A stretch of 64,000 nt of DNA from contig JAGFJJ010000031.1 of NCBI GenBank assembly GCA_024102815.1, positions 1 to 64,000 on the forward strand. The letters are read 5' to 3'. Position numbers and translations under genes: made by a program. Below, piece after piece: positions 1 through 14,319 of this stretch; position 1 is the stretch's first letter; every line of letters begins with the position of its first letter. The DNA comes from Phycisphaerae bacterium (GTDB lineage: Bacteria > Planctomycetota > Phycisphaerae > UBA1845). The notes beneath the pieces are model-generated. The model did not search any database, was not told where the DNA came from, and saw only the letters and a program-made list of their open reading frames with translations.

Positions 1-283
1 CGAAGATGAAGGCCTCCCGGTAGCGGCGGCGTCCGTCGCCACGCTTCCAGCCGAAGAGGTTGCCCACGATGGCTTGTTGCCACGGCTGGAGGATGAACGG
101 CTGGCCCATCCACTCCCCGGCGGTGAAGGTAAGGCATTCGTGGAAGAAATCGACGGCGCGCTGGGCAGCGCGAACATCGAACGTGCAGCCACCGGTGTTC
201 TCGAACGGATCGTAACCGGGGATGAGGCCGTAGACTTCGTCCTGCTTCAGCTTACCCCGCCTGGAAGAACCGCGCTTTGCCAC
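1..283 (-). CDS. terL: Phage terminase large subunit, N-terminal part (runs off left edge)
   Basis: The minus-strand frame from a GTG at 281-283 stays open to base 1, about 94 codons, and is cut by the window edge. It carries the N-terminal signature of HK97-type large terminases: a short leader, then GEWMGQPFILQPWQQ and the start of the ATPase region ending in REAFIF, just before the expected Walker A. TerL is the ATP-driven motor and nuclease that packs DNA into proheads. It overlaps the 3' end of terS by 32 bases, and the order HNH, terS, terL is the common phage packaging order. The start is inferred; no strong ribosome site is seen inside terS. The rest, and any head genes, should lie left of the window. 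Confidence 0.8.
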   Translation of the reverse strand, partial: MAKRGSSRRGKLKQDEVYGLIPGYDPFENTGGCTFDVRAAQRAVDFFHECLTFTAGEWMGQPFILQPWQQAIVGNLFGWKRGDGRRRYREAFIF

Positions 284-740
284 TGGCGGCCTCCTGCTTC
301 TGCGGGGCGAGTTGGATACGGGCTCTGGCGCTGGGTGTCATGCCGAACTCGGCTTCGAGCCGCGTGAGCTGTGTGGCCAGCTTGTTGGCGATGGCGACCT
401 GTGGCCACTGCTGGAAGCACTTCACGGCGCCGTCGTCAGTCTTGATGGGGTACATCTCCCCGCGCTGGTCGATGAACTGCTCGGCCTTGCGCCAGCGACT
501 CCACAGGCGGCAGTAGCGGCCGAGGGCGTTGCCGTCCACGCGGGTCAGCACGCCCATGACCTCGAGCAGCGGAACAAGATGATCCCAGGCCATGCCAGCG
601 TCTTCGTCGAGCCAGTCGGGGCGGTCGGGAACGCCATCGGGGCCACGGACCTCCTGCTCCTCGCGCTTGCGCGTGACACGTTTGCTGCCGCGAAGCTTCA
701 GCAGCGGCGTCGGCGTTGGGGCTGGTCCGCGTCGTCCCAT
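252..740 (-). CDS. terS: Phage terminase small subunit, P27 family
   Basis: A 162-residue protein starting MGRRGPAPTPTPLLKLRGS, the typical opening of P27-type small terminases, followed by a helical body with WxxLVPLLEVMGVLTRVDG and a C-terminal stretch FGMTPSARARIQL that is also characteristic of the family. TerS recognises the packaging site on phage DNA and loads TerL. I chose ATG 738-740; an in-frame TTG at 752 would add four residues. The gene lies between an HNH endonuclease and terL. A phased RAGC word array ends about 10 bases upstream of the start, a natural place for a packaging-initiation site. Confidence 0.85.
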   Translation of the reverse strand: MGRRGPAPTPTPLLKLRGSKRVTRKREEQEVRGPDGVPDRPDWLDEDAGMAWDHLVPLLEVMGVLTRVDGNALGRYCRLWSRWRKAEQFIDQRGEMYPIKTDDGAVKCFQQWPQVAIANKLATQLTRLEAEFGMTPSARARIQLAPQKQEAASGKARFFQAG

Positions 741-750
741 GATTCTATCC

Positions 751-895
751 AAGCATTGCCATGAGCCTGTCCGAGCCTGCGCAGAGCTTTTCGTGAGCTT
801 TCATGAGCAAATCCAAGCCTGTCACAAGCTTTTTCATGAGCAAGGCAGAGCATCGCACAAGCATCCCCAAGCTTTGCACAGAGCATTGCGCAAGC
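751..895. repeat. Phased array of 14 RAGC words (candidate pac/TerS-binding site)
   Basis: On the plus strand the tetramer AAGC or GAGC begins at 751, 763, 773, 784, 795, 805, 815, 826, 838, 848, 859, 869, 881 and 892. The intervals are 10, 11 or 12 bases, mean 10.85, close to one DNA turn. The filler between words is degenerate (often TTGC or CTGYC). Intervals of 10 and 11 do not keep a reading frame, so a purely protein-level cause such as a leucine repeat is unlikely. It sits directly upstream of terS. Binding by a TerS ring is inference. A 60-codon TTG-initiated minus frame (745-927) covers it but has no convincing ribosome site. Confidence 0.7.
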
Positions 896-1055
896 AAATC
901 GGGGTCGTAGCGTTTCTCACGGGCCAACCTGCGTTCTCGGCAGCGCCAGGGCGGTTTTCATGTTTCGACCCCTCCCCCCCATACGAAAACCGGGGGAGAA
1001 ACGCGTGTCGGTGGCGACGTGGTATACACCGAAAATCCGTAGATATTTGACCGGC

Positions 1056-1376
1056 CTACCGGTCGTTAGGTGAGTTCCCGAAGCCACCGTCATACTTCAC
1101 CGTCTTCTTCGAATGACAACTTGCGCAGAGCGTCTGCAAGTTCGATTCATTGTGCGTTCCGCCACGCGCCAGCGGCACGATGTGATCGACGACTTCGCCG
1201 GCGACGACGCGCCCGTCGTGATCGTTGAACGGGTCCTCGCACAGCGGATGCTTCATCAGGTACCAGCGTCGTACGCGCTGCCAGTGGCGGTCGTACCCAC
1301 GTTGCGATGGCGACGGTCGTTGGCCGACACGCTTGATGACAGGCATCGATCGATGTCGCTTGGGCGCGTAGGGCAT
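1056..1376 (-). CDS. HNH endonuclease (phage packaging-associated)
   Basis: A protein of 106 residues with a basic N-terminus and a complete HNH nuclease core: CEDP, then VVDHIVPLARGGTHNESNL, then LCASCHSKK, giving the DH, N and zinc-cysteine positions of the beta-beta-alpha metal fold. Small HNH nucleases beside terminase genes assist packaging in many HK97-like phages. I chose ATG at 1374-1376 (MPYAPKRHRS); an in-frame upstream start at 1397 adds seven residues. The stop codon is TAG, of possible note given the amber suppressor tRNA in this element. About 300 bases separate it from terS. Confidence 0.85.
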   Translation of the reverse strand: MPYAPKRHRSMPVIKRVGQRPSPSQRGYDRHWQRVRRWYLMKHPLCEDPFNDHDGRVVAGEVVDHIVPLARGGTHNESNLQTLCASCHSKKTVKYDGGFGNSPNDR

Positions 1377-1462
1377 GGTCGTTCTCCATCGCTCCAATCA
1401 TACGCACGCAATCGGCATGTCATTCCAATCGTTGGAACACGTTGAGCGTGGAATGCGTACGC

Positions 1463-1621
1463 TCACTCCTGCACCAAGCGGAACCGATAGCCGCACTGCT
1501 CATTCATGCACCGCACCCACGACAGCGCGCTGCCGTCGCCCTGGTCGCTGACGGTGCGGTATTTGCGTAGCCGTACGCCGCCGCATCGCGGGCAGCGCGG
1601 GCGTTCGACGGTGATGGTCAT
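1463..1621 (-). CDS. Small zinc-ribbon protein
   Basis: A 52-residue protein beginning MTITVERPRCPRCGG with a CPRCG knuckle and a second pair in VRCMNEQCGYRF, i.e. a four-cysteine zinc ribbon. Such small ribbons are frequent in phage early or transcription-related regions and can act as regulators, but no specific function can be read here. I chose ATG 1619-1621; an upstream start would add 14 unrelated-looking residues. It is followed downstream by the HNH gene on the same strand. Confidence 0.6.
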   Translation of the reverse strand: MTITVERPRCPRCGGVRLRKYRTVSDQGDGSALSWVRCMNEQCGYRFRLVQE

Positions 1622-1785
1622 CAGGCGTCTTTTGGGTGATTCAGGCTTATCTTGAAAGCACATCGATGCGGCCCTCCTTGGACCAAGGCAATGGCGGGAA
1701 TTCCCCGGGAATTAGCTTGATTCCGTTGGCAACCGTTGCCCTCATGTGGGTGTACGCATGGGGCGTACCGAACACGGAGAAGAAC

Positions 1786-2130
1786 ATGATGACGAACAAC
1801 ATGCCCGAGACGACCAACGACGAGCCGGCGGACCTGCTGGACACGCTCAAGATCACCGAGGTGCAACCACGGGACGCCGGTGGCTCGTGGGTGATGGGCA
1901 ACATCGGTGGCCACCGCTTCGACGCGCTCGTGTTCCCCGAGCATGCCGCCTTCCCCGATTACGAATTGGACGCGAGTCGCATTTCCAAGCTCTGGGTCCA
2001 GCGCATCGCCGACCGCGCGGTGGTGGTCAATTTCGACCGCGGCTGGGACGTTCGGCCGACGACACCGGTTGCCGAGGAAATCGTCGACCTGTTGGTCGCC
2101 GGATTGGCCGAGACCGTTTGCGCCGATTGA
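1786..2130 (+). CDS. Conserved phage/mobile-element protein (DUF7678-like)
   Basis: A 114-residue acidic protein starting at ATG 1786 (a second ATG follows at once), preceded by GGAGAAG. After a disordered, charged N-terminus it has a compact domain: GSWVMGNIGGHRFDALVFPEHA, here quoted in two parts as GSWVMGNIGG and HRFDALVFPEHA, then ISKLWVQRI and VVVNFDRGWD. This resembles small mobile-element proteins I associate with DUF7678; the family name is from memory, not a search. It heads a short plus-strand run of four small genes that points against the surrounding minus-strand genes. Function unknown. Confidence 0.6.
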   Translation: MMTNNMPETTNDEPADLLDTLKITEVQPRDAGGSWVMGNIGGHRFDALVFPEHAAFPDYELDASRISKLWVQRIADRAVVVNFDRGWDVRPTTPVAEEIVDLLVAGLAETVCAD

Positions 2131-2208
2131 ACAGGTTGCAGAGGCAATAGATTCAAGACCATTTGGCCGCGTCGCGTCGACGTGGCAGGAACCAAACATA
2201 GGAGAAGA

Positions 2209-2580
2209 ATGATGGAAACGACAAAGAGGACCGGATCGAAGAAGTCGAAGCGCGCCGCCAAGGCGAAGAAAGCCGCGACCAAGTCCACGGCGAAGAATGC
2301 CAGCGCGAAGGGCACCAAAGCCGAGAAGGTCGCCAAGCCCAAGCGTACCAGCGCGTTGGACGCCGCCGCGACGGTTCTCAAGAGCGCCGGCAGGCCGATG
2401 CGAGCGCAGGAACTCATCGCCTTGATGGCCGAGAACGGCCTGTGGTCCAGCCCGGCAGGGCGAACGCCTTCGAGCACCTTGTACGCCGCAATGATTCGCG
2501 AGATCAGCGCCAAGGGTAAGGACGCCCGCTTCCGCAAGGTCGATCGCGGGCAGTTCGAATTCAACGCGGGGGGCAAGTGA
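2209..2580 (+). CDS. Lysine-rich tail plus HARE-HTH domain DNA-binding protein
   Basis: A 123-residue protein. Residues 1 to about 45 are very rich in Lys and Ala, like histone H1-type tails, and residues about 46 to 123 form a winged-helix HARE-HTH domain ([51 protein letters not shown]). HARE-HTH domains link nucleic-acid binding to chromatin or restriction-type proteins. Start ATG 2209 follows GGAGAAGA; the next codon is also ATG. The stop TGA overlaps the ATG of the next small gene (TGATG), so the two are probably translated together. Confidence 0.75.
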
Positions 2581-2756
2581 TGACCAGCCACGACAACGGA
2601 CGCGAGCCGATCGATCCCGTCGCGTTGGAAGACGCCTGTCCGCAATGCGGCGAGCGCGAATGCGACGAACTGGTCTGGCTCGACGACGAGCGCGTCGAAT
2701 GCCAGCGGTGCAAGACGGTCTACCGACCGGACACGCGAGACCCGTCGTCCGAGTAG
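2580..2756 (+). CDS. 58-residue zinc-ribbon protein
   Basis: A short frame starting at ATG 2580, which overlaps the stop of the HARE-HTH gene as TGATG, and ending in TAG at 2754-2756. The product has two cysteine pairs, CPQCG and CQRCK, with an acidic linker, so a zinc ribbon is predicted. Tight coupling to the previous gene and the intact four-cysteine pattern support a real gene despite its size. Reading through its amber stop would add 39 codons and end at a TGA overlapping the next gene's ATG; I treat that as chance. Confidence 0.65.
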   Translation: MTSHDNGREPIDPVALEDACPQCGERECDELVWLDDERVECQRCKTVYRPDTRDPSSE

Positions 2757-2878
2757 TCCACGTCACGAACCCTCCACCAACGCCTCGCATTCTCGCGGGG
2801 CGTCTCTCCGGTTGGACGGTGGCGCCACGGCTATCGTTCAGCATTGCACGCGTCCCGGTCTCCGTTATCATCCGGCTC

Positions 2879-3175
2879 ATGAGCGGCGGCGCGGTCATCG
2901 TCATGAAACAGAACCGGTACCTTCGGCGCTTTCGCCAGGCCCGGGCCGATGCTGCCTCCAGGGCTTGCACGCTTGAAGAACTCAGCTTGCGGGATTCGTG
3001 GCTGTTTCGGCGCATGGCGGCGCGAGGGGTCTTTGTACAGGTGGAAGGCGACCGCTGGTATATCGATGCCGTGGCCGCGGAATCATTTTTGCGCCGCCGG
3101 GCGAGGATCATGCTCACGCTCGCCGCTGTTGGCGTCTTGATCATCATTATCGTGATGGTCCTGCTGGCTCGTTAG
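2879..3175 (+). CDS. Small membrane protein with helical N-terminus
   Basis: A 98-residue protein starting at ATG 2879 (ATG 2903 possible). The N-terminal two thirds are basic and helical (NRYLRRFRQARADAASR, LSLRDSWLFRRMAARGVFV), followed by DRWYIDAVAAESFLRRR and one hydrophobic segment (LTLAAVGVLIIIIVMVLLA) at the very C-terminus, so a tail-anchored inner-membrane topology is predicted. Its 3' end overlaps the converging methyltransferase gene by 29 bases. No function recognised. Confidence 0.6.
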   Translation: MSGGAVIVMKQNRYLRRFRQARADAASRACTLEELSLRDSWLFRRMAARGVFVQVEGDRWYIDAVAAESFLRRRARIMLTLAAVGVLIIIIVMVLLAR

Positions 3176-4556
3176 GGACAGCGACAGCATCCGGGACATC
3201 CTTCGCGGCAGACGAGGCCGACTGACAAGAGGATACGCATTCCGCTCTCCGTCCCGTAAACTTCTCCCACCTAGCGACGATGACATCCGCGTACAACGGG
3301 TCCAACTCCATCAAATACGCTCGCCTTCCCGTCTGCTCGGCCGCGATCAGCGTCGAACCGCTCCCTCCGAACAAGTCGAGTACATGTTCGCCGACGCGCG
3401 ATGAGTATTGAATCGCCCGCACGGCCAGCTCGACGGGCTTCTCAGTGAGGTGAATCATCGATTGGGGGTTCACCTTCTTCACATGCCAAAGGTCAGTCAC
3501 ATTGTTCGGGCCGAAGAAGGAATGGGCTGCGCCTTCACGCCAGCAATAGAAACACCATTCGTGTGCACCCATGAAGTCTTTTCTGGTCAAGACGGGATGT
3601 TCCTTGTCCCAGATAATGGCTTGGCTGAAATACAGACCCGCCTCCTTCAATGCGGCGGGATAGTTGGCACAATTGGCATAACCACCCCAGACATACGCCA
3701 CGCGGCCGGGGAGTAGCACGCGGCCGATCTGTCCGAACCAAGCCCGCAGCAACTGCGCGAACTGATCGTCACTCACGAAGTCGTTCTCCAACGGCCTGTC
3801 CTTCGCGCGCAGCTTCGCTGTTGTCTTCTTTGCCTTGGAATGACCACGAGCCAGGTCGAAACCCTGATGATGGGTGAGACCCCGCCTCTTGCCGTTGGCG
3901 CTGCTTTCCGCCGCCGGGAACGACGACAATCCCGCGCAGATGGCGTTATTCGAACGCGGTTCGACCTTGACGTTGTATGGCGGGTCGCAGTTACAAAGAT
4001 GGATCACTTGGTCGTCCAGCAATTGGTCCACATCGTGGACGCTTCCGCTGTCGCCGCACAACAATCGATGATCCCCCAGCAGCCACAGATCGCCGCGTTT
4101 CGTGGTCGCCTCGTCCGGCGGCGCGGGAATCTCATCCGGACCGCATTCGCCTTCCTTGACGCCGGGGTCGAGGAACCGCGACAGCTCGTCGTCCGTGAAT
4201 CCCAACAGCGACAGGTCGATGTCCATCGTCTGGAGCGCGGCCAGTTCTGCCGGGAGCATGTCCAGATTCCACTGGGCCAATTCGTTGAGTCGATTGTCCG
4301 CCAACCGGTAGGCGCGGCACTGGGCCGGCGTTAGCTCGGTGGCGACGTGGACGGGAATCTTCTCCAGCCCCAACTGCTTGGCGGCTTTCCACCTCGTGTG
4401 ACCGACGACGATCACGCCGTCGCCGTCCACGACCACCGGCTGACGGAAGCCGAACTCCTGGATGGACCTTGCCACCGCCGCCACGGCCTCGTCGTTGGTT
4501 CTCGGGTTGTCCGGATACGGCCGGATGTCGGCCACCGGGCGCATTTGGATCTTCAT
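3147..4556 (-). CDS. ParB-like nuclease domain fused to DNA methyltransferase
   Basis: A 469-residue protein with two parts. Residues 1 to about 125 form a ParB/sulfiredoxin-like domain (IRPYPDNPRTN, VVVGHTRWKAAKQLG). Residues about 150 to 440 form a DNA adenine or N4-cytosine methyltransferase in beta order: catalytic CDPPYN first, SAM-binding LDLFGGSGSTLIAAEQ later, with TEKPVEL between. Such fusions are common in prophages and may guard phage DNA from restriction. ATG 4554-4556 is preceded by GGAGG at good spacing. The last 35 residues are low-complexity. No partner restriction enzyme is in the window, so a solitary methyltransferase is likely. Confidence 0.9.
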   Translation of the reverse strand: MKIQMRPVADIRPYPDNPRTNDEAVAAVARSIQEFGFRQPVVVDGDGVIVVGHTRWKAAKQLGLEKIPVHVATELTPAQCRAYRLADNRLNELAQWNLDMLPAELAALQTMDIDLSLLGFTDDELSRFLDPGVKEGECGPDEIPAPPDEATTKRGDLWLLGDHRLLCGDSGSVHDVDQLLDDQVIHLCNCDPPYNVKVEPRSNNAICAGLSSFPAAESSANGKRRGLTHHQGFDLARGHSKAKKTTAKLRAKDRPLENDFVSDDQFAQLLRAWFGQIGRVLLPGRVAYVWGGYANCANYPAALKEAGLYFSQAIIWDKEHPVLTRKDFMGAHEWCFYCWREGAAHSFFGPNNVTDLWHVKKVNPQSMIHLTEKPVELAVRAIQYSSRVGEHVLDLFGGSGSTLIAAEQTGRRAYLMELDPLYADVIVARWEKFTGRRAECVSSCQSASSAAKDVPDAVAVPNEPAGPSR

Positions 4557-4792
4557 TTCACAACCTCCGTTGTCTCACGCGGCGTCCTGGCGCCGCGTTC
4601 CATTCCTTGGCCACGTAACCGCCCCCTTGGGTCCCCCAACGCCGCCCCGTGGCCAGACGGGCCACCGTGGGGCGAGATCGCGGGCCGGGTGGCCGTTGGG
4701 TACGCGGTCGTTCCAGGGACGCCCAGCACGCGGACACGACCTGCTCCAGTACACGCGGAGGTACTTGGGGGGATGGTGGTAGGCCTCACCAA

Positions 4793-4985
4793 CTTCTGCA
4801 TTGCGAGGGCCTCGCGCGCGTGGGGTGCCGAACATGCGGAACATGCGGAACATGACCGCATACAGACCACCAACTTCCGCATGTTTTTCATCTTCCGCAT
4901 CCCCTGTGTCTCAGGACCGAACGTCAACTTCCGCAACTTCCGCATCTCCGGGGGTCTACGCGCGCGCACGAGACGCATGCGGAAC
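4793..4985. repeat. Iteron-like cluster of TTCCGCA words
   Basis: The stretch 4557-4955 holds no convincing gene. It contains seven exact copies of TTCCGCA or its complement: as TGCGGAA at 4834-4842, 4843-4851 (perfect 9-base tandem ATGCGGAAC) and 4977-4985; as TTCCGCA at 4874-4882, 4892-4900, 4928-4936 and 4937-4945 (tandem). A one-mismatch copy is at 4793-4801. The last copy falls inside the primase 3' end. Iterons beside a replication gene suggest an origin or a regulator-binding region; that role is inference. Confidence 0.6.
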
Positions 4986-6986
4986 TTGCCCGTTGCCTTC
5001 ACCCATGACAAACCACTCCGGCGGAGAACGGTCGGCCAACCAATACCACCACTCAGCGGGATCGGTTTCCGGCCGGCGCTCGAAGCAAAGTCGACCCGCC
5101 TTGCGCAGGTCCGTCCGGGCCCGCTCGAAGGCGTCCATGCTGAACTGCCGATCGGTTTCGACCTCCGAGAGTGCTTTGACATTGAGGTCGGCCGCGGTCA
5201 TGGGTCCCAAGTCCAGAGCATTCGCAATGAACTCCGCCGCGCACTCCCGCTTGGACTTGCGACCCTCGCCCTTGCGCTGACCAATGAGCATCTCACCCGG
5301 AGTGAATGTGACGGGTGCGAAGTCGTAGTGGATGTACGGCGCCCCGGTGTCGGCGACCCGAATCTTCCACGACAGCGGGTCCGGCGTCGGACCGATGGAG
5401 AACTTGATCCACATGGCGACGCGCCGGGGGTTCTTCTCCTCCGCGGGCTCGTTCGGGTCGGTGCCGATGAATACCACGCAACGCATGGCTTCCGTCCACG
5501 CCGTGGAACCGGCGATGCGCTCCAAGGGGTCGGTATTCCGCCAGTCTTTGTTGGGGTGTTTGATAATCAGAACAGCGCAACCGACGGTTTCGGCCAGGGC
5601 CTTCAGGGGCTGGATGATCTCGTTACGGACCTGTTCGTTGCTGTTTTGCTCAACGCTGCCCAGGTAGCTGGTTACCGGCGAGACGACAATCAAGCCAACG
5701 TCGCCGATACGCCGGGCGAGCCGATGAATCTTCTCAACGTCCCGCTGGATGCTGATGAACCGGGTCCGGTCGGGATTGTCGGTAGGGGCGCCCTGCACGC
5801 AGCGGATTCGGGTCAAATCGGCGCCGGCGGCCGCGAGTCGGGGAACGATGGAAGATTCGAGGTGTTCTTCGGCTTCGAGCAGAATCGCGCTACGGGGGGC
5901 GCGCCGCGGTCCGGTTCGATCGTCCGGCCAGGGCGAGCCCGTGGTGATTCTGGCGATGATGTCGTAGGCGAACAGGTTCTTAGACGCGCACTGTCTGCCG
6001 CCAAGGAGCGTGCAGGATTCCGAGGGAATTCGCCCATCCCACAGGAATGGCTGTGCGCGAGGGGTGACGTCCGCGAGCCGCACGATAACGAGGTCGGGCT
6101 CCTCCTCGACGACAGGGGCCATTTCCACCAATTCTTCGAGCTCGTGGCGGATGTCGTCGTCGGTGGCCCCATTCTCACGGCGCATCGCAACGAACTGTTC
6201 AATGTCGTCGCCGTCGTTTACGACCGGAAGGCGGACCACCCTGATCATTGGAGCAGGGCTCAGCCGTTTGAGTGCCTCAAGTACATCCTTCGTGTGCGTC
6301 TCGCCGGCGGCGTCGTGATCGGGGCAGATGATGATGGTCTTCCCGGCCAGGGGAGACCAGTCAGTCTTCGAAACGGCCTTGGCGCCGTGGGCGTTGGTTG
6401 TGGCGATCAGGCCAAGTTCACGGAAGAGTTCGACGCATTTCTCACCCTCGCAAAGCCAGATGATCTTCGCATCGAGCAATTCGGGCAGGCCGTAGAGCGG
6501 CAGCAATCCGGGCGGGTCGCCGAGACGCCAGCCGGTGGGGGAGGGGCGCAGGGGGCGATACTGTTTGGGCCTGCTGCGCCGACAGTCGTCGAAGCGCAGG
6601 ACGCGGAAGACCTCATCCCCGTCCGCATTCTGGTATACCCAGGCGCCGCTGAGCCGTCCCCCGAGTGATCGCGCCAGGTGGGCCTTCGCTGCCGATTCCG
6701 TCGGGAAGGCGCGACCATTGTTCGACGGTGCCCGGCTGGCCTTCACTGTCGGCAAAGGCGAACGTTCCGGAAAAGCGTCCGAAGGCTTCAAGCCCACGGA
6801 ATTGAGGATGTCATTGAATTCACAGTTGGCGTGGCAGGTCGCGAGCAATCTGCCGTCGTCGCCCCGGCCAACGGAAAGGCTGGGGTTGCGGTCCGCGTGG
6901 GCGGGGCATTTTGCCGTCCACTGGTTCGGTCCCGCTGCGCGGACGCCGTCGAGCAAGTCGAGAAACCCGGCCACCGGATCCGTCAT
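4956..6986 (-). CDS. Primase/RepA-type replication protein (CHC2 zinc finger, Toprim, RecA-like ATPase)
   Basis: A 676-residue protein. An N-terminal CHC2-type zinc motif (CPAHADRNPSL, CHANCEF) is followed by a Toprim domain (LCEGEKCVEL near 180, CPDHDAAG near 230) and an AAA_25/RepA-like ATPase from about 330. This architecture initiates replication in phages and plasmids by primer synthesis and helicase loading. Oddly, the expected Walker A reads GGRQCASKN, lacking the usual GxGK[ST] residues, while the surrounding strands (TLLGG, LIVVSPVTSYLG) look normal. Its start overlaps the stop of the upstream gene by four bases, so they are coupled. Iteron-like repeats lie at its 3' end. Stop is TAG. 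Confidence 0.85.
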   Translation of the reverse strand: MTDPVAGFLDLLDGVRAAGPNQWTAKCPAHADRNPSLSVGRGDDGRLLATCHANCEFNDILNSVGLKPSDAFPERSPLPTVKASRAPSNNGRAFPTESAAKAHLARSLGGRLSGAWVYQNADGDEVFRVLRFDDCRRSRPKQYRPLRPSPTGWRLGDPPGLLPLYGLPELLDAKIIWLCEGEKCVELFRELGLIATTNAHGAKAVSKTDWSPLAGKTIIICPDHDAAGETHTKDVLEALKRLSPAPMIRVVRLPVVNDGDDIEQFVAMRRENGATDDDIRHELEELVEMAPVVEEEPDLVIVRLADVTPRAQPFLWDGRIPSESCTLLGGRQCASKNLFAYDIIARITTGSPWPDDRTGPRRAPRSAILLEAEEHLESSIVPRLAAAGADLTRIRCVQGAPTDNPDRTRFISIQRDVEKIHRLARRIGDVGLIVVSPVTSYLGSVEQNSNEQVRNEIIQPLKALAETVGCAVLIIKHPNKDWRNTDPLERIAGSTAWTEAMRCVVFIGTDPNEPAEEKNPRRVAMWIKFSIGPTPDPLSWKIRVADTGAPYIHYDFAPVTFTPGEMLIGQRKGEGRKSKRECAAEFIANALDLGPMTAADLNVKALSEVETDRQFSMDAFERARTDLRKAGRLCFERRPETDPAEWWYWLADRSPPEWFVMGEGNGQVPHASRARA

Positions 6987-7297
6987 TGACCGACCGCCTC
7001 GGCTTCGGATGAACGGGTTATCGGTGGATGATCAACGGCGCGGACCGTGAAGGCTGCCTCGCCGAACTCCTTTGTCAGATAGCCCGTGAAAAGCTGGCAG
7101 ATGGCGTGTCCGACTTCGCTACGTGCATCAATGGCGATTATCCGGCGCGCCTGATCGATGGAGTACGCGGCGTCCATCCGCACGGTGGATTCACCGAATA
7201 GGCCCTTCGCGCCTATTAATGCGAGGTGCAGCGTGCACTCGACATCCGCAATTGCGGCTTGTTCGTTGAATTCATAGCGATAGATCGCTGACATCAT
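6983..7297 (-). CDS. Conserved hypothetical phage protein
   Basis: A 104-residue protein starting MMSAIYRYEFNEQ; ATG 7295-7297 chosen because a GAGAGATG purine stretch precedes it (a GTG at 7312 would add five residues). The sequence alternates short hydrophobic strands (VECTLHLALIGAKGL, SIDQARRIIAIDARSEVG) and a helix (AICQLFTGYLTKEFGEAAF), suggesting an alpha/beta fold. It sits between the sigma-like gene and the primase, with a four-base overlap to the primase, so a replication accessory role is plausible, but I recognise no family. Confidence 0.6.
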   Translation of the reverse strand: MMSAIYRYEFNEQAAIADVECTLHLALIGAKGLFGESTVRMDAAYSIDQARRIIAIDARSEVGHAICQLFTGYLTKEFGEAAFTVRAVDHPPITRSSEAEAVGQ

Positions 7298-7325
7298 TGG
7301 GGCATCTCTCACTCGAAAGAAGCTT

Positions 7326-7916
7326 CTATTCTTTACTTACGCCGTTGCTCTTGGAGTTGGCCGGTCCGTCCGTGAGGTAAGCATCGAGTCCTGCCGACGC
7401 GAATACGTTGCGCAATGTTTGAAGGCGGCCCCGCACCTGCCCACGGGTCAGGCCCAGCCGGCGTGCCGCTTCGGAGACCGGCTCCTGCATCAGGAGAACG
7501 CAGAGAGATTGCAGATCGGCTTCCAAGCGACGGACGGCGTCTTCCACGTCTATTGCCAGATCGGCCTGTGAACAGCCCGTTTCGTGATGCGGATCGACAA
7601 CGTCTTCGCAATCGGAGCATTCGTCAGTCGAATGCCCATCCAACGACACGCTCCTTCTGAAATCGCGGCATTGGGCGAACCTCTGCCGCAGAATCGACGC
7701 GATCCTGCTGCTGACAATTCGGTCGGCATACGTGTTGCGACTGCCTCGATTCGGATCAAAACCTGTCATCCGCTGAATCAAATGCAGCGCGAGGTCCTGC
7801 TCGAGGTCGGCACTATCGGAGCCGGTGAAACCGTATTTGCCGACAAGTTGATGGGCCTTCACGCGAATCAAGTTGGCTTCGTAATCACTGAGTGCTTGCA
7901 GACATCCCGTGTCCAA
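7326..7916 (-). CDS. Sigma-70-family-like transcription factor (phage)
   Basis: A 196-residue protein with sigma-like layout: a region-2-type segment in residues about 25 to 90 (DLEQDLALHLIQRM, FDPNRGSRNTYADRIVSSR) and a region-4-type HTH near 150 to 180 (EPVSEAARRLGLTRGQVRGRLQTLR). It is probably a mobile-element regulator that redirects RNA polymerase. The start is TTG 7914-7916, preceded five bases away by AGGAGG; that ribosome site is the 3' arm of a perfect seven-pair hairpin, so translation is probably controlled. The stop is TAG. Assignment to a specific sigma group is not possible by eye. Confidence 0.75.
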   Translation of the reverse strand: MDTGCLQALSDYEANLIRVKAHQLVGKYGFTGSDSADLEQDLALHLIQRMTGFDPNRGSRNTYADRIVSSRIASILRQRFAQCRDFRRSVSLDGHSTDECSDCEDVVDPHHETGCSQADLAIDVEDAVRRLEADLQSLCVLLMQEPVSEAARRLGLTRGQVRGRLQTLRNVFASAGLDAYLTDGPANSKSNGVSKE

Positions 7917-7920
7917 GGTT

Positions 7921-8024
7921 GCCTCCTTTGAGGAGGCTCACGGGTGTCGTCAGGGCACTGCCCGACCAGGCAAGCAGCAGAGGCGTTGCGAGATCGCGAT
8001 ACTCCGCGACACCCGCAACGCCTC
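7921..8024 (-). promoter_or_regulatory. Structured leader with sequestered Shine-Dalgarno site
   Basis: On the minus strand, GCCTCCT-CAA-AGGAGGC (7937-7921) forms a 7-bp stem with a 3-base loop and buries AGGAGG of the sigma-like gene, whose TTG start is at 7916. Further upstream are a 45-base stem-loop with 11-bp outer arms (GAGGCGTTGCG 7980-7990 against CGCAACGCCTC 8014-8024) and 5-bp inner arms (7994-7998, 8005-8009), and a short GGGCA/TGCCC hairpin near 7950-7966. No T-run follows, so these are not simple terminators. A translational switch is inferred. Confidence 0.6.
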
Positions 8025-8074
8025 CGCTTAACGGCCGGCAAACTGCGCCGTGTTCGTCTGATCGTTGTTTCTTC

Positions 8075-8416
8075 TTAGACAGCTACGTGGCGTTGCTCGA
8101 TTTCGACGATGAAGGGCAGGCCGTGACGAACATCAACCGTCACGCGTTCGCCTTGAACGAGCGGCTTCAGTGCGTCCAGAAGCGCTAAATGCTCTCGACG
8201 CAACTCGAAATCCTCGAGGTGCCGTTCCGGCCGCGGGTCATTGTCGCCGCTGGCGAGCTTGACTGTGCGCTGCGTGGACCAGGGAGAATCCAGATCGGGC
8301 TCCCCGTTCCTGACATGCAACGTGATGCGTCCGAAGTTGATCCGCTGGCACTGGCCGACAAGGCGTTGCCAGGGATCGGAGAGCTGCAGCATCCTCATGC
8401 GATTGTCCTCCGTCAT
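8075..8416 (-). CDS. Hypothetical mobile-element protein
   Basis: A 113-residue protein from ATG 8414-8416 (MTEDNRMRMLQLSDPW). It has a beta-rich N-terminal half (INFGRITLHVRNGEPDL, RTVKLASGD), a helix (LEDFELRREHLALLDALKPL) and a final strand pair (ERVTVDVRHGLPFIVEIEQ). I have the impression of a small family carried beside sigma-like genes in planctomycete mobile elements, but cannot name it. A longer frame extends to 8494 without a better start. It lies just upstream of the structured leader of the sigma-like gene. Confidence 0.55.
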   Translation of the reverse strand: MTEDNRMRMLQLSDPWQRLVGQCQRINFGRITLHVRNGEPDLDSPWSTQRTVKLASGDNDPRPERHLEDFELRREHLALLDALKPLVQGERVTVDVRHGLPFIVEIEQRHVAV

Positions 8417-8577
8417 TCCATTTGGGCAGCCGACGGACCGCCCGGTTAACGGGGTCATTTTCGCGAGGAATTCGTGCGCGCAACTTTGGCGCAACCACCG
8501 AATGTGCTGCCCTGGGCTGTGCAGCTTGGAATCGGCTTCAATGATGGGAGTTGCGCAACTTGAATCGGCGGGCTGCG

Positions 8578-9597
8578 CTAAGACTTTCGAGACGTGATCT
8601 CGCCGATGATGGCATTACGGATCTGAGCGACTTCTTCATTGCCAAGATCCTCCCGCTTCTGAATCCACGTGAGGAAACTGGAAATGCGCACCCGCTTCAA
8701 ATGGCCAGCCTTGCCGTTGGTCTCGATTTGCTTACCGCAGAGTCGCGAGAAGCCACCCTTGTGGAACACTGGCTGCCCCAGCACCTGTTCCGTGGCCCTG
8801 ATCAACTCGGCCTGTCGGGCCCATTCGTATCGATCGTCCGCCTGCGGGGCGTGAGCTTTCTGTGGGGGCGCTTCTTTCGCCGCTTCCGATTCTCGGCTCT
8901 TGCTTGAACGCACAACCGCGATCCCGGCGGGCGTCAACGTGTAACAACGGCCCCAAGGCGATTCTTCCAACGAATCAAGCCCGAGATCGTCAGCCAACTC
9001 CTTCTCCGCTGCGGGGTCATAGTAGAGCCAAGTCAGCCGGGGGAAAGTCTCAACCACCTCAGTAAAGATCGTCGAATGGTCTGCATCAGGTTCGTAGTAA
9101 CGGGCGTCTCGCAGGGCTTCGTCCAGCTCGGAGTAAAGTCCGAAACTGACGCGGTATTCCCTGTAACGGCAGTCCTTGACGGTTTGATTCGGCCTGTCAC
9201 CAACCAGATAAGGCGTGGTTCCGTTTTCAGTATCCATGCAGATGAATCTCCCGTCGCGCATGGACCTGCAACCGAGCACGGGCCAATGGCTATTGCGCTT
9301 CTGCACGAAACCCAGCGAATCCAACGCCGCCAGCCGCGCATGAACATCGAACTCGGCAATTGGCCAGCTCAGGCGATTGTCCCCGACTTTTATTAACGAA
9401 ACCGTCGCGGCGTAAATGAGATAGGCCGCGACCGGTGATATGCGCTTCTCGCGGGCTCCTTTTCCGACGTAGGGGTCGAATTCGAACTCGTGAAGCGCCG
9501 CCAGAATACGTCGGTCGAAGGCGTCTATCAGCTTCGAGGGATCGTTTGCGCTCAAACCAACGTCAGTGCGCGAGGTCACCGGGTACGAACTCCTCAA
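8578..9597 (-). CDS. Unknown 339-residue protein
   Basis: A long open frame with no recognised family. Residues about 25 to 95 are helical (LIDAFDRRILAALHEFEF, ISPVAAYLIYAATVSLI) and could be a winged helix ending in LDSLGFVQKRNSHWPVLG; the middle is rich in Tyr and acidic residues; a charged linker (about 240-265) leads to a C-terminal helical domain ending EEVAQIRNAIIGEITSRKS. There is no signal peptide or membrane segment. It is probably a cytoplasmic, possibly DNA-associated, mobile-element protein. The stop is TAG. A noncoding gap of about 160 bases separates it from the next minus-strand gene downstream. Confidence 0.55.
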   Translation of the reverse strand: MRSSYPVTSRTDVGLSANDPSKLIDAFDRRILAALHEFEFDPYVGKGAREKRISPVAAYLIYAATVSLIKVGDNRLSWPIAEFDVHARLAALDSLGFVQKRNSHWPVLGCRSMRDGRFICMDTENGTTPYLVGDRPNQTVKDCRYREYRVSFGLYSELDEALRDARYYEPDADHSTIFTEVVETFPRLTWLYYDPAAEKELADDLGLDSLEESPWGRCYTLTPAGIAVVRSSKSRESEAAKEAPPQKAHAPQADDRYEWARQAELIRATEQVLGQPVFHKGGFSRLCGKQIETNGKAGHLKRVRISSFLTWIQKREDLGNEEVAQIRNAIIGEITSRKS

Positions 9598-9706: not shown

Positions 9707-10171
9707 TCATGCCTTAGCGAGCCTTTCGTCCGCGATGTCATTGGGGTCCATGACCTCCTGATATTTCGTTGGGCGACGTCCCTTGCCCTTAGATCTTACA
9801 ACAATGAATCCCCGCCTTGTTAAGGCGTTCAAGTCATTCATCAGTGATACACGAGACGGAATCCGCACTTCATTGCCGTATTTCTCCTCGTATCGCTGGG
9901 CCGCTTCAGCTCGAGTAAACTGATCACCCTCAAACGATTTGATGACGTTCGTCAATAACTGACACTTGCTTGCCGAAACCAAGCGCACGCGCCCGGTTCC
10001 GTTCTGTTTGGCCTTTTGCGTGTGTATCATGTCTATTTTTGCTTTAAGGCCGACTTCGCAATCGTGGAGGCGTCGTTGAAGTTGCTCCAGCTCAGCCGTG
10101 ATCGCTGCACGCTCCCTGCGATAGGCGTCTACTGCTTCCTTTTCGATATCTTCCCAATTAACAGTGGACAT
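9707..10171 (-). CDS. Coiled-coil plus winged-helix-like protein
   Basis: A 154-residue protein from ATG 10169-10171. Residues about 5 to 60 form a coiled coil (EAVDAYRRERAAITAELEQL, RRLHDCEVGLKAKIDMI); residues about 70 to 150 look like a winged helix (QLLTNVIKSFEGDQFTRAEA, SLMNDLNALTRRGFIVVRSKG). This layout suits a dimeric DNA-binding regulator. The gene lies immediately downstream of the suppressor tRNA on the same strand, so tRNA and mRNA could share a transcript. Base composition is less GC-rich than the host genes. Confidence 0.6.
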   Translation of the reverse strand: MSTVNWEDIEKEAVDAYRRERAAITAELEQLQRRLHDCEVGLKAKIDMIHTQKAKQNGTGRVRLVSASKCQLLTNVIKSFEGDQFTRAEAAQRYEEKYGNEVRIPSRVSLMNDLNALTRRGFIVVRSKGKGRRPTKYQEVMDPNDIADERLAKA

Positions 10172-10191: not shown

Positions 10192-10219
10192 TTGACAAGG
10201 AGCGGATATCTGCTATACT
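10192..10219 (+). promoter_or_regulatory. Sigma-70 type promoter reading antisense into the tRNA
   Basis: TTGACA at 10192-10197, a 16-base spacer, and TATACT at 10214-10219 on the plus strand. The predicted start near 10226 is one base from the 3' end of the minus-strand tRNA, so the transcript would run through the tRNA complement to the terminator at 10318-10365. Confidence 0.5.
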
Positions 10220-10226
10220 TTAAAAA

Positions 10227-10310
10227 TGCCCCCGGTGGGGATCGAACCCACAACGGCCCACGCCAACCCGATTTAGAGTCGGGCGCCTTTGCCAGTTTGG
10301 CCACGGGGGC
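10227..10310 (-). tRNA. tRNA-Sup(CUA), class II, Leu-like amber suppressor
   Basis: The minus strand folds as a complete tRNA: acceptor GCCCCCG/CGGGGGC, D-arm GCC/GGC with loop AAACTGGCAAA, anticodon stem CCCGA/TCGGG with loop CTCTAAA, a 15-base long variable arm with GGC/GCC pairs, T-arm GTGGG/CCCAC with loop TTCGATC, discriminator A. CCA is not encoded. The anticodon is CUA (complement at 10274-10276), which reads the stop codon UAG. The D-loop and A73 fit a leucine body; tyrosine is the alternative, because the loop differs from bacterial tRNA-Tyr CTGTAAA by one base. The long variable arm excludes tRNA-Pyl. Confidence 0.9.
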
Positions 10311-10317
10311 GCAGAGT

Positions 10318-10365
10318 AACCGGCGGCGGACGGCGAGCGCAATCGTCGCCGCCAGCCGGTTTTTT
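10318..10365 (+). terminator. Intrinsic terminator (plus strand)
   Basis: AACCGG (10318-10323) pairs with CCGGTT (10356-10361); inside, GGCGG and ACG pair with CGT and CCGCC, and six T residues follow (10360-10365). It would stop a plus-strand transcript begun at 10226 after about 140 bases. On the minus strand the same hairpin lies in the leader between the tRNA promoter and the tRNA. Confidence 0.65.
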
Positions 10366-10366
10366 G

Positions 10367-10395
10367 ATGCTATTCGGACCGGGCGTAGCTGTCAA
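10367..10395 (-). promoter_or_regulatory. Promoter for the suppressor tRNA
   Basis: On the minus strand TTGACA (10395-10390), a 17-base spacer, and TAGCAT (10372-10367), four of six matches to TATAAT. It points at the tRNA, whose 5' end is about 57 bases downstream, implying a processed leader. Confidence 0.5.
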
Positions 10396-10440: not shown

Positions 10441-10824
10441 ATGGCCAAGGGCAAGGGAGCTTCTAGGACCGCCCAACGGCGCGGAGCATTCAAGCCAACG
10501 GCAAGGGTCACTTTCCGATACATCAAGAGCGGATTTCACCGGGTGATCACGGCCAACGGGATACACGGCGGCCCCACGCCAAATGGCAAGATGATCGCAA
10601 TGTCGTTGTTCAACGAACGACAACCCATTCCTCAAGAGGAGGTGTATGGCGTCGACAAGAATGGGAAGCTGACGGAGAGGCCGCTTCAACGGACCCAGGA
10701 AGGCGACATCATCCGAGAGGTTGAGACAACCGTTCTCATGGAACCTCAAGTTGCCGCCAGAATCCGTGACTGGTTGGACGCCATGATTCGCGCCGTGCCA
10801 AATCAGACGGGACAGAAACCATGA
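10441..10824 (+). CDS. DUF3467-like small protein
   Basis: A 127-residue protein with a basic N-terminus, then strands (RVTFRYIKSGFHRVITANG, KMIAMSLFNERQPIPQE) and a C-terminal segment IIREVETTVLMEPQVAARI leading to DWLDAMI. The layout, a beta-sandwich with an REVE strand and a closing helix, recalls DUF3467 proteins; this is a resemblance only. ATG 10441 follows AGGAGCAATTA. It is the first gene of a three-gene plus-strand operon: its TGA overlaps the next ATG (ATGA at 10821). The operon is oriented against most of the element and is less GC-rich, as accessory genes often are. Confidence 0.55.
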   Translation: MAKGKGASRTAQRRGAFKPTARVTFRYIKSGFHRVITANGIHGGPTPNGKMIAMSLFNERQPIPQEEVYGVDKNGKLTERPLQRTQEGDIIREVETTVLMEPQVAARIRDWLDAMIRAVPNQTGQKP

Positions 10825-11258
10825 CCTTGTGCTTCGGGACAACAACGTCTATTAGCGACTATGCCGGGCATGTCGAGGCCATAGATATTAGCGCTGACAA
10901 GCAATACGTCGCACTTGACTGGCAAGTGCGCGTTCATTTTCAGAGGCTGGCTTCAGAATGGGAGCACGACATATATCATGTATCCTCTATGGAGAAGATG
11001 CGCGAACTGCCCAGCTTTCAAGCGCTGATCAGCCTCGGCAAGGCTGTGGTTCCGTTTGCAGTCGAGAGGCTTAAGCGTCACGTACTTTGGATTCTTGTAC
11101 TTGAAGCACTCCTTGGAAAAGCTCCCTTTGCCGCGGAGGGAAAGGAACTACATGAAATCAAGAAAGCGTGGCTTTCATGGGCGCGCAAGCATGGTTACCT
11201 CACCTCGAATCGAACCAATCAGCGAAGAAACGCTGCGCGCATTTCCAGCACTTGCTGA
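10821..11258 (+). CDS. Helical hypothetical protein, middle gene of accessory operon
   Basis: A 145-residue protein coupled to the previous gene by ATGA. The core, MRELPSFQALISLGKAVVPF, ERLKRHVLWILVLEALLG and EIKKAWLSWARKHGYL, resembles small alpha-helical repeat proteins of the kind that pair with DUF7689-like proteins, but I cannot name a family with certainty. No signal peptide. Its last 23 codons overlap the start of the next gene in another frame, which is a large overlap and suggests translational coupling or a short acquired C-terminal tail. Confidence 0.5.
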   Translation: MTLCFGTTTSISDYAGHVEAIDISADKQYVALDWQVRVHFQRLASEWEHDIYHVSSMEKMRELPSFQALISLGKAVVPFAVERLKRHVLWILVLEALLGKAPFAAEGKELHEIKKAWLSWARKHGYLTSNRTNQRRNAARISSTC

Positions 11259-11727
11259 GTCTGATTTCATTGGCCATAGCAACCCAAGTCCAGATTACAA
11301 TTGCGCCGCTTTTACGCTCGGGTTCAAGAACAAGTGGAGATGGCCCGATCAGCAGGGCCGGTGGGTCAGCCATGCGCCCCTTGGACAGTCAGACAAAATA
11401 TCTGTAGAGGTTCTGATTCGCGCCTACGAATCCGTGGGTTTTCAGGCGTGCGACAACGGGGAATTCGAACCTGGGTGCAAGAAAATCGCAATCTACGTCG
11501 GCGTCAATGGAATCGCAGAACACGTAGCAATGCAGCGGCCCGATAGGCCCGCCGGTCGTTGGTTTAGCAAGCTTGGAAGTGGTCACGATATTGAACATGA
11601 TCTGTACGCACTGGAAGGCGACGAATATGGACGTGTCCACGGCGTTTTTCTGAAGAGGCAGGTACGACGTGCAAGAAGAAGAGCCGAGCGAATTGGCGGT
11701 TCCGATCGATGTAGGCCGCGCCCTTGA
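11191..11727 (+). CDS. Predicted papain-like hydrolase (DUF7689-like)
   Basis: A 178-residue protein from ATG 11191, inside the 3' end of the previous gene. It has a conserved-looking YNCAAFTLG segment and WRWP, then VSVEVLIRAYE-type helices (here ISVEVLIRAYESVGFQACD), IAIYVGVNGIAEHVAMQ, FSKLGSGHDIEHDL and EYGRVHGVFLKR. A Cys near residue 35 and a His in AEHVA near 125 would fit a papain or NlpC/P60-type Cys-His pair. The fold and activity are inference. With the two preceding genes it may form a toxin-, defence- or modification-type cassette in the element. Confidence 0.55.
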   Translation: MVTSPRIEPISEETLRAFPALAESDFIGHSNPSPDYNCAAFTLGFKNKWRWPDQQGRWVSHAPLGQSDKISVEVLIRAYESVGFQACDNGEFEPGCKKIAIYVGVNGIAEHVAMQRPDRPAGRWFSKLGSGHDIEHDLYALEGDEYGRVHGVFLKRQVRRARRRAERIGGSDRCRPRP

Positions 11728-11793: not shown

Positions 11794-12228
11794 TCAGAAC
11801 TGACTCGTCGTAAGCTCCCGCCACATCCGCCGCTGCTTCCGCCAGTCGGGTACGAGGGTGATGGGGCGGAGCTGCAGTTCGCGGATCGGGTCGCGACCCG
11901 ACTCCACGGGCGGCAGGAAAAGAACCTCTTCCTGGATGTCTGGCGCCAATAGCGTAAGGTTCATTAATTGCGTGAGCCGCGCGCGGGTGACGTGGCCCAG
12001 GCGGGCGAGTTCGGCGTAGTCGCTGACCTCGCCGGCATCGACGAGCTTCTTCATCCGGATGGCCAGCGCTATCAACCTGGAGATACGGGGCACGCGGCCG
12101 AACACCGACGATGGTGGGGGAGGAGCGTTACCGTGACGTAGTTCCTTCCGCCCGCGACGCGCCCGGGCGAAGTGAATCGTGCTCCGCGTCGTAACCCGTC
12201 CACCCGACTCCTCAACCATCTTGCTCAT
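11794..12228 (-). CDS. Recombinase-associated HTH protein
   Basis: A 144-residue protein whose ATG overlaps the recombinase stop (ATGA at 12228-12225). The middle carries a helix-turn-helix like ParB/KorB types: ISRLIALAIRMKKLVDAGEV, YAELARLGHVTRARLTQLM, followed by LNLTLLAPDIQEEVLFLP-type wording (here NLTLLAPDIQEEVLFLP). Similar small proteins travel with large serine recombinases in mobile elements; a directionality or regulatory role is plausible but not shown. N-terminus is basic and disordered. Confidence 0.7.
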   Translation of the reverse strand: MSKMVEESGGRVTTRSTIHFARARRGRKELRHGNAPPPPSSVFGRVPRISRLIALAIRMKKLVDAGEVSDYAELARLGHVTRARLTQLMNLTLLAPDIQEEVLFLPPVESGRDPIRELQLRPITLVPDWRKQRRMWRELTTSQF

Positions 12229-13787
12229 GCCGCGTTCTCCGCTTCCTCGGCCAGCGCCTTGATGCCCGTCGGCCGAAACGTGACCGAAACCGTGTTACTG
12301 CGACCGTCATAATCGACCCGCTCGACGAGCAATCGAACGATCCGCGCTTGTTCGTGCGACGTCAGCGAATTCCAGATTGGATCGAATGCGGTAAGCGCTT
12401 GGATGGCCTCGGTTTCGTCCACGAGTTCGTCGCGCAGCGCGGCTTGCCGTCCCCGCACTTCCGAAAGCCGGGTTTCCAACCGGCGAAGTTCATCACGCTG
12501 GCCAACTGCGTTCGATTGGCTCGCGCCCACGCGCGAGGCGAGTTCCTGCTTCAACGCCTTGCTCTTTCGGGCGATGTCGCGCTCCAACGCGCTCTTCTCG
12601 CGTTCGAGTTCGGCGATCGCCTTCTGGCTCTGCGTTCGCACCTGCCGGACGGTCTCCGCCAGAACGCTGGGGTCGCGACCGATGCCACGAATCTGATCGA
12701 CGACGAACCGTTCCAGCTCGCCGGCGGGCACGGACTTCGACGGGCACGTGTACCACCCACGCTTCTGGGCCTTCGTGCAGACGTAATACCGGTAACGCTT
12801 CGGTCCCTTGGACGAGGTCGAGTGGATCATCGCGCAGTCGCACGGAACGCAGCGCAGCAGCCCCTTCAGTAGCGCGCCGTGCTTGTTCTTCACGATCCCT
12901 CCGCCGGTGCGCCCGTTGCGTTGGAGCACGGCCTGGACGCGCTGCCAGAGCACCTCGTCGACGATGGCGTCGTGCTCGCCGTCGTACAGGTCCTGACGAT
13001 GCCGGACCTTCCCGACGTACACCGGATTCGTCAGGAGGCGGTGAAGCGTCACCTTGTCGAAGGGGTGACCACCCAGCGCCCTGCCCTTGCGCGTCGTCCA
13101 CGCCTTGGTGCGCCACTCGCGGCGGTCGAGTTCCTGGAGCACGGGCGCGATCCGCTCGTGGCCCAGGTACTGTTCGAATATCGCACGGACGCGGGCGGCC
13201 TCGTCCTCGTTGACGATGAGTTTGCATCCGCCCGGCGTGATCAGCAGGTCGTAGCCCAGCAGCGGCTTGCCGCCCATCCACTTGCCCTTGCGACGAGCGG
13301 CCGCGATCTTGTCGCGCGTCCGTTCACTGATGATCTCGCGCTCGAACTGGGCGAACGAAAGCAGGATGTTCAGGGTCAGCCGGCCCATTGAATGCGTGGT
13401 GTTAAAGGCCTGCGTGACGGAAACAAACGAAGCGCCGTGTCGGTCGAACGTCTCCATGATTCGGGCGAAGTCGAGCAATGAGCGGCTGAGCCGGTCCACC
13501 TTGTAGACCACCACGCAGTCGATCTTGCCGACCTCGATGTCGGCCAAGAGCCGCTGGAGCGCCGGGCGTTCCATGTTGCCGCCGGTGAAGCCGCCATCGT
13601 CGTAGCGGTCGGGCAGGCAGACCCACCCTTCGGCCCTCTGGCTGGCGATGTACGCCTCGGCGCTCTCGCGCTGGGCGTCCAGCGAGTTGAAATCCTGTTG
13701 CAGGCCCTCCTCGGTGGACTTGCGCGTGTAGATCGCGCAGCGGACCTGCGCCGTCGCGCTCTTGGTTTCGGTCTTCTTTCTACCCAC
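12225..13787 (-). CDS. Large serine recombinase (integrase)
   Basis: A 520-residue site-specific recombinase that likely moves the whole element. The N-terminal resolvase domain has the nucleophile in YTRKS (Ser24), DGGFTGG, VYKVDRLSR and FARIMETFD; the central recombinase domain includes LGYDLLI and RRLLTNPVYVGKVRH-type wording (LHRLLTNPVYVGKVRHRQ); a zinc ribbon follows (LRCVPCDCAMIHS, YVCTKAQK, TCPSKSV) and a coiled coil near 385 to 450. GTG 13785-13787 is used and overlaps the DUF2924 stop. No inactivating change is seen. Large serine recombinases usually sit at an element end, so attR should be near 14.6-14.8 kb. Confidence 0.93.
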   Translation of the reverse strand: MGRKKTETKSATAQVRCAIYTRKSTEEGLQQDFNSLDAQRESAEAYIASQRAEGWVCLPDRYDDGGFTGGNMERPALQRLLADIEVGKIDCVVVYKVDRLSRSLLDFARIMETFDRHGASFVSVTQAFNTTHSMGRLTLNILLSFAQFEREIISERTRDKIAAARRKGKWMGGKPLLGYDLLITPGGCKLIVNEDEAARVRAIFEQYLGHERIAPVLQELDRREWRTKAWTTRKGRALGGHPFDKVTLHRLLTNPVYVGKVRHRQDLYDGEHDAIVDEVLWQRVQAVLQRNGRTGGGIVKNKHGALLKGLLRCVPCDCAMIHSTSSKGPKRYRYYVCTKAQKRGWYTCPSKSVPAGELERFVVDQIRGIGRDPSVLAETVRQVRTQSQKAIAELEREKSALERDIARKSKALKQELASRVGASQSNAVGQRDELRRLETRLSEVRGRQAALRDELVDETEAIQALTAFDPIWNSLTSHEQARIVRLLVERVDYDGRSNTVSVTFRPTGIKALAEEAENAA

Positions 13788-14319
13788 GTGCGCCCTCCCT
13801 GCGCCGCTTCGGTTTCGCCGGCTTCGAATCCCGGTCCGCCTTCGATTTGGCGAGCTTGAAGAACAACAGCCCGTTCCAGTGGGAGCCGGTGATCAGCTTG
13901 GCGATCGCGCTGAGCGAGCGGAAGATCTGGCCGTCGTACTCGAAACCGTCCTGGTGAACCACGACGTGGTACGCCTGGCCGCGATAGACGCGGGTCAGCA
14001 CGGTCCCCGGCGGCGGGACGCGTTCGTCACCGAGCGACGCCGCCGGCTTCGCGTCGTTCGCACCCACGGCCGTCAGCGGCGTTCGTGGGGCGGTGGTTCG
14101 CAGGTCGGTGTCACGGGCCAGCAACTCCGCCCGCCGCCGCGCCCGCTCCGACAGGTCGCCCTCGGCCAGCGACTGAATCCGCCATGCGATCCGCTTGAAG
14201 AGGAAGTCCTTGTTCCCGGCCCGCGTGGGCTCGCCGAAGACCGTTTCGTATTTTTGGCGGAGTTCACGGACGCCCATCTGCCTGAGCTCCGCGATCTCCT
14301 TTCCGATGTTCATGGCCAT
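13780..14319 (-). CDS. DUF2924 protein, recombinase partner
   Basis: A 179-residue protein with the DUF2924 hallmarks: IAELRQMGVRELRQKYETVFG, GNKDFLFKRIAWRIQSL, and a C-terminal half LTRVYRGQAYHVVVHQDGFEYDG (given as LTRVYRGQAYHVVV and DGFEYDG) followed by SLSAIAKLITGSHWNGLLFF. These proteins are found next to large serine recombinases in proteobacterial and planctomycete elements; their job is not settled. The TAG stop overlaps the recombinase GTG. ATG 14319 is used; a second ATG lies two codons in. Confidence 0.85.
   Translation of the reverse strand: MAMNIGKEIAELRQMGVRELRQKYETVFGEPTRAGNKDFLFKRIAWRIQSLAEGDLSERARRRAELLARDTDLRTTAPRTPLTAVGANDAKPAASLGDERVPPPGTVLTRVYRGQAYHVVVHQDGFEYDGQIFRSLSAIAKLITGSHWNGLLFFKLAKSKADRDSKPAKPKRRREGARG

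Follow-up and report, generated by a model that had tools for sequence, protein, structure and literature searches.

How can a bacterial cell survive with a suppressor tRNA that should disturb about one third of its genes? This question is raised by a tRNA gene with the anticodon CUA, tRNA(CUA), located in the window, i.e. the whole stretch of 64,000 nucleotides of Phycisphaerae DNA analysed here, which begins with the first base of contig C31. An earlier note on this DNA had described the gene as an amber suppressor with a Leu-like body inside a prophage-like element and had proposed that the element may read UAG as Leu (or Tyr). On the evidence below (features in the table) we give somewhat better than even chances to tRNA(CUA) being a functional leucine-accepting amber suppressor that is carried as restricted prophage cargo, without established recoding.

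Table. Features of the tRNA(CUA) locus and of the surrounding prophage (window coordinates)
Feature	Position	Strand	Basis or remark
Class II tRNA(CUA) with Leu-like body, CCA not encoded	10227..10310	-	ARAGORN; Rfam RF00005, 59.3 bits; host tRNA comparison
Antisense promoter-like site, TTGACA-16-TATACT, 11/12, TG before -10	10192..10219	+	best in window
Sense promoter-like site upstream of tRNA(CUA), TTGACA-17-TAGCAT, 10/12	10367..10395	-	two sites of this score in the 64 kb
Intrinsic-terminator-like hairpin of the antisense unit	10318..10366	+	-32.7 kcal/mol, followed by TTTTTT
Predicted ~140-nt RNA, antisense to full tRNA(CUA)	10226..10366	+	inferred
CATTTTT, terminator-like T run directly after tRNA(CUA)	10222..10228	-	
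Rest of prophage: TerL start (cut), TerS, HNH, ParB-MTase, primase, sigma-like, o8075	1..8494	-	
o8578, prophage gene	8578..9597	-	C-terminal domain common to C56 and G488 elements; TAG end in all three
o9707, 154-aa protein just downstream of tRNA(CUA)	9707..10171	-	predicted long N-terminal helix (low-confidence model)
o10441, 127-aa orphan ORF, cargo	10441..10824	+	
o10821, 145-aa ORF, cargo	10821..11258	+	
DUF7689 protein, cargo	11185..11727	+	PF24738, E 4.1e-25
Integration module: small ORF o11794, serine recombinase, DUF2924	11794..14319	-	same module in C56 prophage

ARAGORN called a tRNA with the anticodon CUA over exactly the minus-strand interval given in the table. Its label, 'tRNA-Pyl', is due to the CUA anticodon alone, and a pyrrolysine tRNA was ruled out, the gene having a long variable arm and a full D-loop where a short variable loop and a small D-loop are required. 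Direct reading of the 84-nt gene from its 5' end to the anticodon arm gives GCCCCCG UG GCCAAACUGGCAAAGGC G CCCGA CUCUAAA UCGGG, and the 3' half comprises a 15-nt variable arm, a regular T-arm with a conserved T-loop and A73, CCA not being encoded. All stems are intact, the acceptor stem being GCCCCCG/CGGGGGC, and the anticodon loop is CUCUAAA. The Rfam tRNA model is covered as a whole with no non-standard pairs marked (gathering threshold 29 bits, E-value 2.8e-10), and the score lies within the range of the class II tRNAs of the host (about 52-61 bits). ARAGORN, Rfam and direct reading thus bear out the cloverleaf, the loop, the anticodon, the long variable arm and A73 as described earlier, and the host-range score together with the intact stems rules out a pseudogene, one of the outcomes that the earlier note had named as refuting its reading.

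A search of the whole genome with the tRNA(CUA) DNA returned the self match only and no close copy, which excludes a recent origin from a host tRNA by mutation of the anticodon. An IUPAC pattern extending from the D-arm to the anticodon loop had a single match in the window and no match in 100 shuffles. Among 35 further genomes of the same family DNA similarity revealed no close homologue, and in the searched records, mostly fragments, no relative of the element carries a CUA tRNA, so that selection cannot be read from conservation.

The identity of the tRNA was addressed by comparison with five Leu, four Ser and one Tyr tRNA of the host. A15-U48, U44, the layout of the long variable arm and A73 are common to tRNA(CUA) and the host Leu tRNAs, and the D-loop has the Leu-type layout, GG being preceded by two bases and separated by four from the 3' half of the stem. 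In the Ser tRNAs of the host position 73 is G, and in both its Ser and Tyr tRNAs position 15 is G. By alignment, tRNA(CUA) is closest to Leu(CAA) of two related genomes and to another CUA tRNA (0.72), followed by a further CUA tRNA and a host Leu tRNA (0.69) and by Tyr (0.64), with the host Ser tRNAs being furthest. Counting against the Leu reading, pair 12-23 is C-G in tRNA(CUA) and G-C in the host Leu tRNAs. A Tyr identity suggests itself because CUCUAAA and the loop of the host Tyr tRNA, CUGUAAA, are a single base apart; the body, however, is of the Leu type, and as its features fit Tyr or Ser less well both were rejected. Of the two amino acids considered in the earlier note Leu is therefore retained and Tyr is not, the Leu-like body having been confirmed by the host comparison, and the nucleotides of the body suggest that tRNA(CUA) would be charged by LeuRS.

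The prophage genes span positions 1 to about 14.7 kb of the window (a visible element of about 14 kb), and the genes for terminase, replication and integration are ordered as in phages. TerS (PF05119), HNH, ParB-methyltransferase, primase/AAA, a sigma-like protein, a serine recombinase and DUF2924 were found, in agreement with the prophage-like element recognized earlier, and prophage genes of the window are also present in related viral contigs. No CUA tRNA was found in these related viral records, most of which are fragments. Contig C56 of the same genome holds a third related prophage, whose genes follow the order DUF2924, recombinase, o11794, o8578-like gene, o8075 and sigma. There the o11794 and o8578 homologues lie side by side with a gap of about 50 bp, whereas in the window they are 2.2 kb apart, the insert containing o9707 and tRNA(CUA) in leftward and o10441, o10821 and the DUF7689 gene in rightward orientation, indicating that tRNA(CUA) is accessory cargo. 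o9707 matches no family; no relatives of it were detected in plasmids, and in viral contigs relatives of neither o8578 nor o9707 were detected.

Contig C26 of the same genome starts with the same TerL start (99% identity over 140 bp), and about 2 kb of it match the window at 87-93%; its prophage has instead an integrase-like ORF beside tRNA-Gly(CCC). The similarity of 87-93% covers the TerS/HNH DNA of window positions 1-2130 and of locus L111 (G000:C26:1-4280), and the two contigs end at one and the same position inside TerL, probably due to two nearly identical late modules that were collapsed into an unbinned contig. Family PF03354 is represented in the genome only by this cut TerL start, on C31 and C26. 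Contig C42, which is matched by the TerL of a relative, was considered as source of the missing late genes and rejected, as it was taken to belong to a different prophage. The late genes are absent from view because C31 breaks inside TerL, and any effect of tRNA(CUA) on them would be hypothetical.

The earlier note had envisaged that the element reads UAG as an amino acid, and for the visible part this is not borne out. A UAG-recoded phage is recognized by internal TAG codons and few TAG stops. In the visible 14 kb no element gene contains an in-frame TAG, and TAG terminates 6 of 19 element genes as compared to 11 of 35 host genes (~31%), the latter having been picked by length and codon-position G+C. 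The list of TAG-ending genes given earlier proved correct on checking, and the high cost then predicted for unrestricted expression is backed by this share among the scanned host genes. Moreover, the same TAG end is kept by HNH in C26 and by the o8578 homologues in C56 and G488, and no CUA tRNA was found in the stretches of C26, C56 and G488 that hold these homologues. Read-through extensions of HNH, primase, sigma, o8578 and DUF2924 were rejected as no conserved coding extension was present; downstream of the o8578 TAG the bases are conserved in three elements, apparently as an inverted and direct repeat, GCGCAAC...GTTGCGC, and not as protein. These repeats (window 8350-8580, L164:7055-7250 and L165:3573-3803) begin at the o8578 TAG and recur downstream, and might constitute an operator or an origin.

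A rival explanation is a recoded phage whose late genes carry in-frame UAG for Leu, while the early genes keep the standard code and the tRNA switches on the late programme. In crAss-like phages read-through is reported to affect late genes for the most part (PMC7886860), the late genes of the window element are absent from the assembly, and Leu-type tRNA(CUA) accompanies TAG-rich genes in other phages (see below). This scenario nevertheless appears rather unlikely: the visible genes frequently use TAG as stop, the first 94 TerL residues contain no TAG, and in L113, the closest viral contig found, with a TerL start 78% identical to that of the window, TerL is open over 535 residues in the standard code. 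In addition, tRNA(CUA) lies in the cargo of the integration/early region and is absent from the C56 sister prophage. In our preferred reading, leucine-accepting cargo without established recoding, the visible phage half keeps the standard code, and UAG decoding would thus be at most partial, conditional or late.

A pattern scan for Leu-like tRNA(CUA) identified three viral contigs and six genome contigs. Two of them, L049 and its relative L095 from goat reticulum, carry the Leu-type tRNA(CUA) beside DnaE and primase genes that contain four to eight TAG codons each (L049:2537-8340, L095:979-6724). In phage homologues the TAG columns of DnaE and primase hold mostly L, I, M, V or Y, with Leu foremost, and where only one of the two contigs has TAG the partner has L in 2 of 4 cases, and E and Q in the others. 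This small sample suggests that UAG is read as Leu in L049/L095, unlike the Gln of code 15, and by analogy the class of Leu-type tRNA(CUA) can plausibly act as Leu suppressor. By a crude test the remaining cases are not obviously recoded, and several are located near mobile or defence genes. An island on a Thermoguttaceae contig (G533:C103; loci L170 and L171) comprises an integrase-like ORF, an AbiE-like pair, an ORF of about 4600 aa and a Leu-type tRNA(CUA); its TAG codons are few, yet it has no sign of recoding.

How should such a tRNA outside recoded genes be understood? It might have no role in phage decoding at all, being an incipient or neutral suppressor that was acquired with the cargo and is expressed at a low level. 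Published cases of suppressor tRNAs with no apparent reassignment have been interpreted as pre-emergent (PMC7886860), and the distribution of the Leu type is rare and scattered, with matches in 2 of 392 genomes of the host phylum, the window genome included, and, using a stricter Leu-type pattern, 6 cases among 84,980 species represented by one genome each. The second matching phylum locus, L153, has the same sequence as L092 from a Planctomycetota genome, by which the window host is assigned to that phylum. The intact stems and the divergence from every host tRNA, however, speak against both a recently mutated and a decaying gene copy, and the gene has a promoter-like site of its own. We regard an accessory tRNA of this kind as unlikely, if a serious candidate.

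Alternatively, the suppressor could serve defence or anti-defence by disturbing termination in an incoming phage or in the defence genes of the host. Recoding has been proposed as an anti-defence strategy (PMC7886860), and unrecoded Leu-type tRNA(CUA) genes do occur near defence or mobile genes: in L092 (2180-6017) the tRNA gene adjoins, in divergent orientation, the anti-phage system IetAS, whose genes IetA and IetS both end in TAG; a Fic protein like SoFic and an IS1595 transposase are found near that of L090, an IS1-like transposase near that of L093 and a serine recombinase near that of L096; and L171 has the AbiE-like pair, assigned by our own reading. These cases are few, with an uncontrolled base rate of island genes adjoining defence genes, and none of the cargo proteins of the window prophage matches a defence family. 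We consider a defence function very improbable.

If tRNA(CUA) is a functional suppressor, the cell would need to keep its expression low, as UAG is the stop of about one third of both host and phage genes. Two of the top three sigma70-like sites in the 64 kb face each other across tRNA(CUA); both are consensus matches only. Under a first-order Markov model 0.05 sites of the antisense quality (11/12) are expected per window and 1.55 of the 10/12 class. The antisense -10 element ends 7 nt before the 3' end of tRNA(CUA), and the plus transcript predicted from these sites would start approximately where the complement of the tRNA starts and end at about position 10366, at a hairpin that the consensus terminator scanner missed, probably because of a bulge. 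For positions 10226-10370 the fold z-score is -4.9. Among 31 host tRNAs with flanks, a sense site of at least 9 matches is present within 250 bp in 5 and an antisense site in none, a contrast that was noticed after the fact and concerns one gene. Host tRNA-Thr(GGU) has the identical TTGACA-16-TATACT site, but on the sense side. As a side observation, the plus strand of window positions 10226-10310 gives a sub-threshold Rfam match to the Plastid-ycf2 5' UTR, possibly an echo of trnL antisense sequence.

These elements could be combined into a genetic switch, where in the lysogen the stronger convergent promoter would drive a dedicated full-length antisense RNA silencing the suppressor, and induction would free the tRNA, converting UAG from stop to leucine at a time set by the phage. 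We consider this elaborate version decidedly unlikely; more simply, the plus promoter could drive the cargo genes to its right and the terminator act as attenuator. In the reading that we favour, restricted prophage cargo, host LeuRS would charge tRNA(CUA) with Leu, the tRNA would then compete with RF1 for UAG, inserting Leu at a low or conditional level, and the host would tolerate it owing to limited expression, plausibly brought about by the strong antisense promoter and its RNA.

Suppressor tRNAs of phages are known, and the variant found here is a Leu-type tRNA(CUA) as prophage cargo with a pair of promoters facing each other. The classical amber suppressors of E. coli, supF (Tyr) and supP (Leu), are chromosomal mutants of host tRNAs. 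Like supF and supP, the window tRNA has CUA in a class II body with a loop of the CUCUAAA type; unlike them it is without a close host parent. With L049 and L095 it shares the Leu D-arm, the class II body, CUA and A73, but these tRNAs encode CCA and have TAG-rich neighbours, whereas the window tRNA is about 60% identical to them, does not encode CCA and is surrounded by unrecoded genes.

In crAss-like and other code-15 phages Sup-CTA suppressor tRNAs read UAG as Gln, the documented amino acid (PMC11210395), and phage suppressor tRNAs also occur without apparent reassignment (PMC7886860). The window tRNA resembles Sup-CTA in being a CUA tRNA on a phage element, but it is Leu-type and located in an integrated prophage of a G+C-rich bacterium with no visible recoded gene. 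The theta-ribozyme-associated suppressor tRNAs of phages likewise have a dedicated neighbour that may control them, a self-cleaving ribozyme adjoining the tRNA (PMC10879173), whereas the window locus has a convergent promoter and an antisense unit. Rfam gave only the tRNA and the sub-threshold plastid family at this locus and no ribozyme, the theta model perhaps being absent from Rfam. A literature search covering few subscription papers returned none on UAG as Leu in phages or on an antisense unit of a suppressor tRNA, which speaks only weakly for novelty. The trigger of the code switch in recoded phages is poorly understood (PMC10879173). If our reading is true, a prophage suppressor that has an apparent antisense switch and inserts Leu, not Gln, would provide a compact system in which both this trigger and the survival of the cell could be tested.
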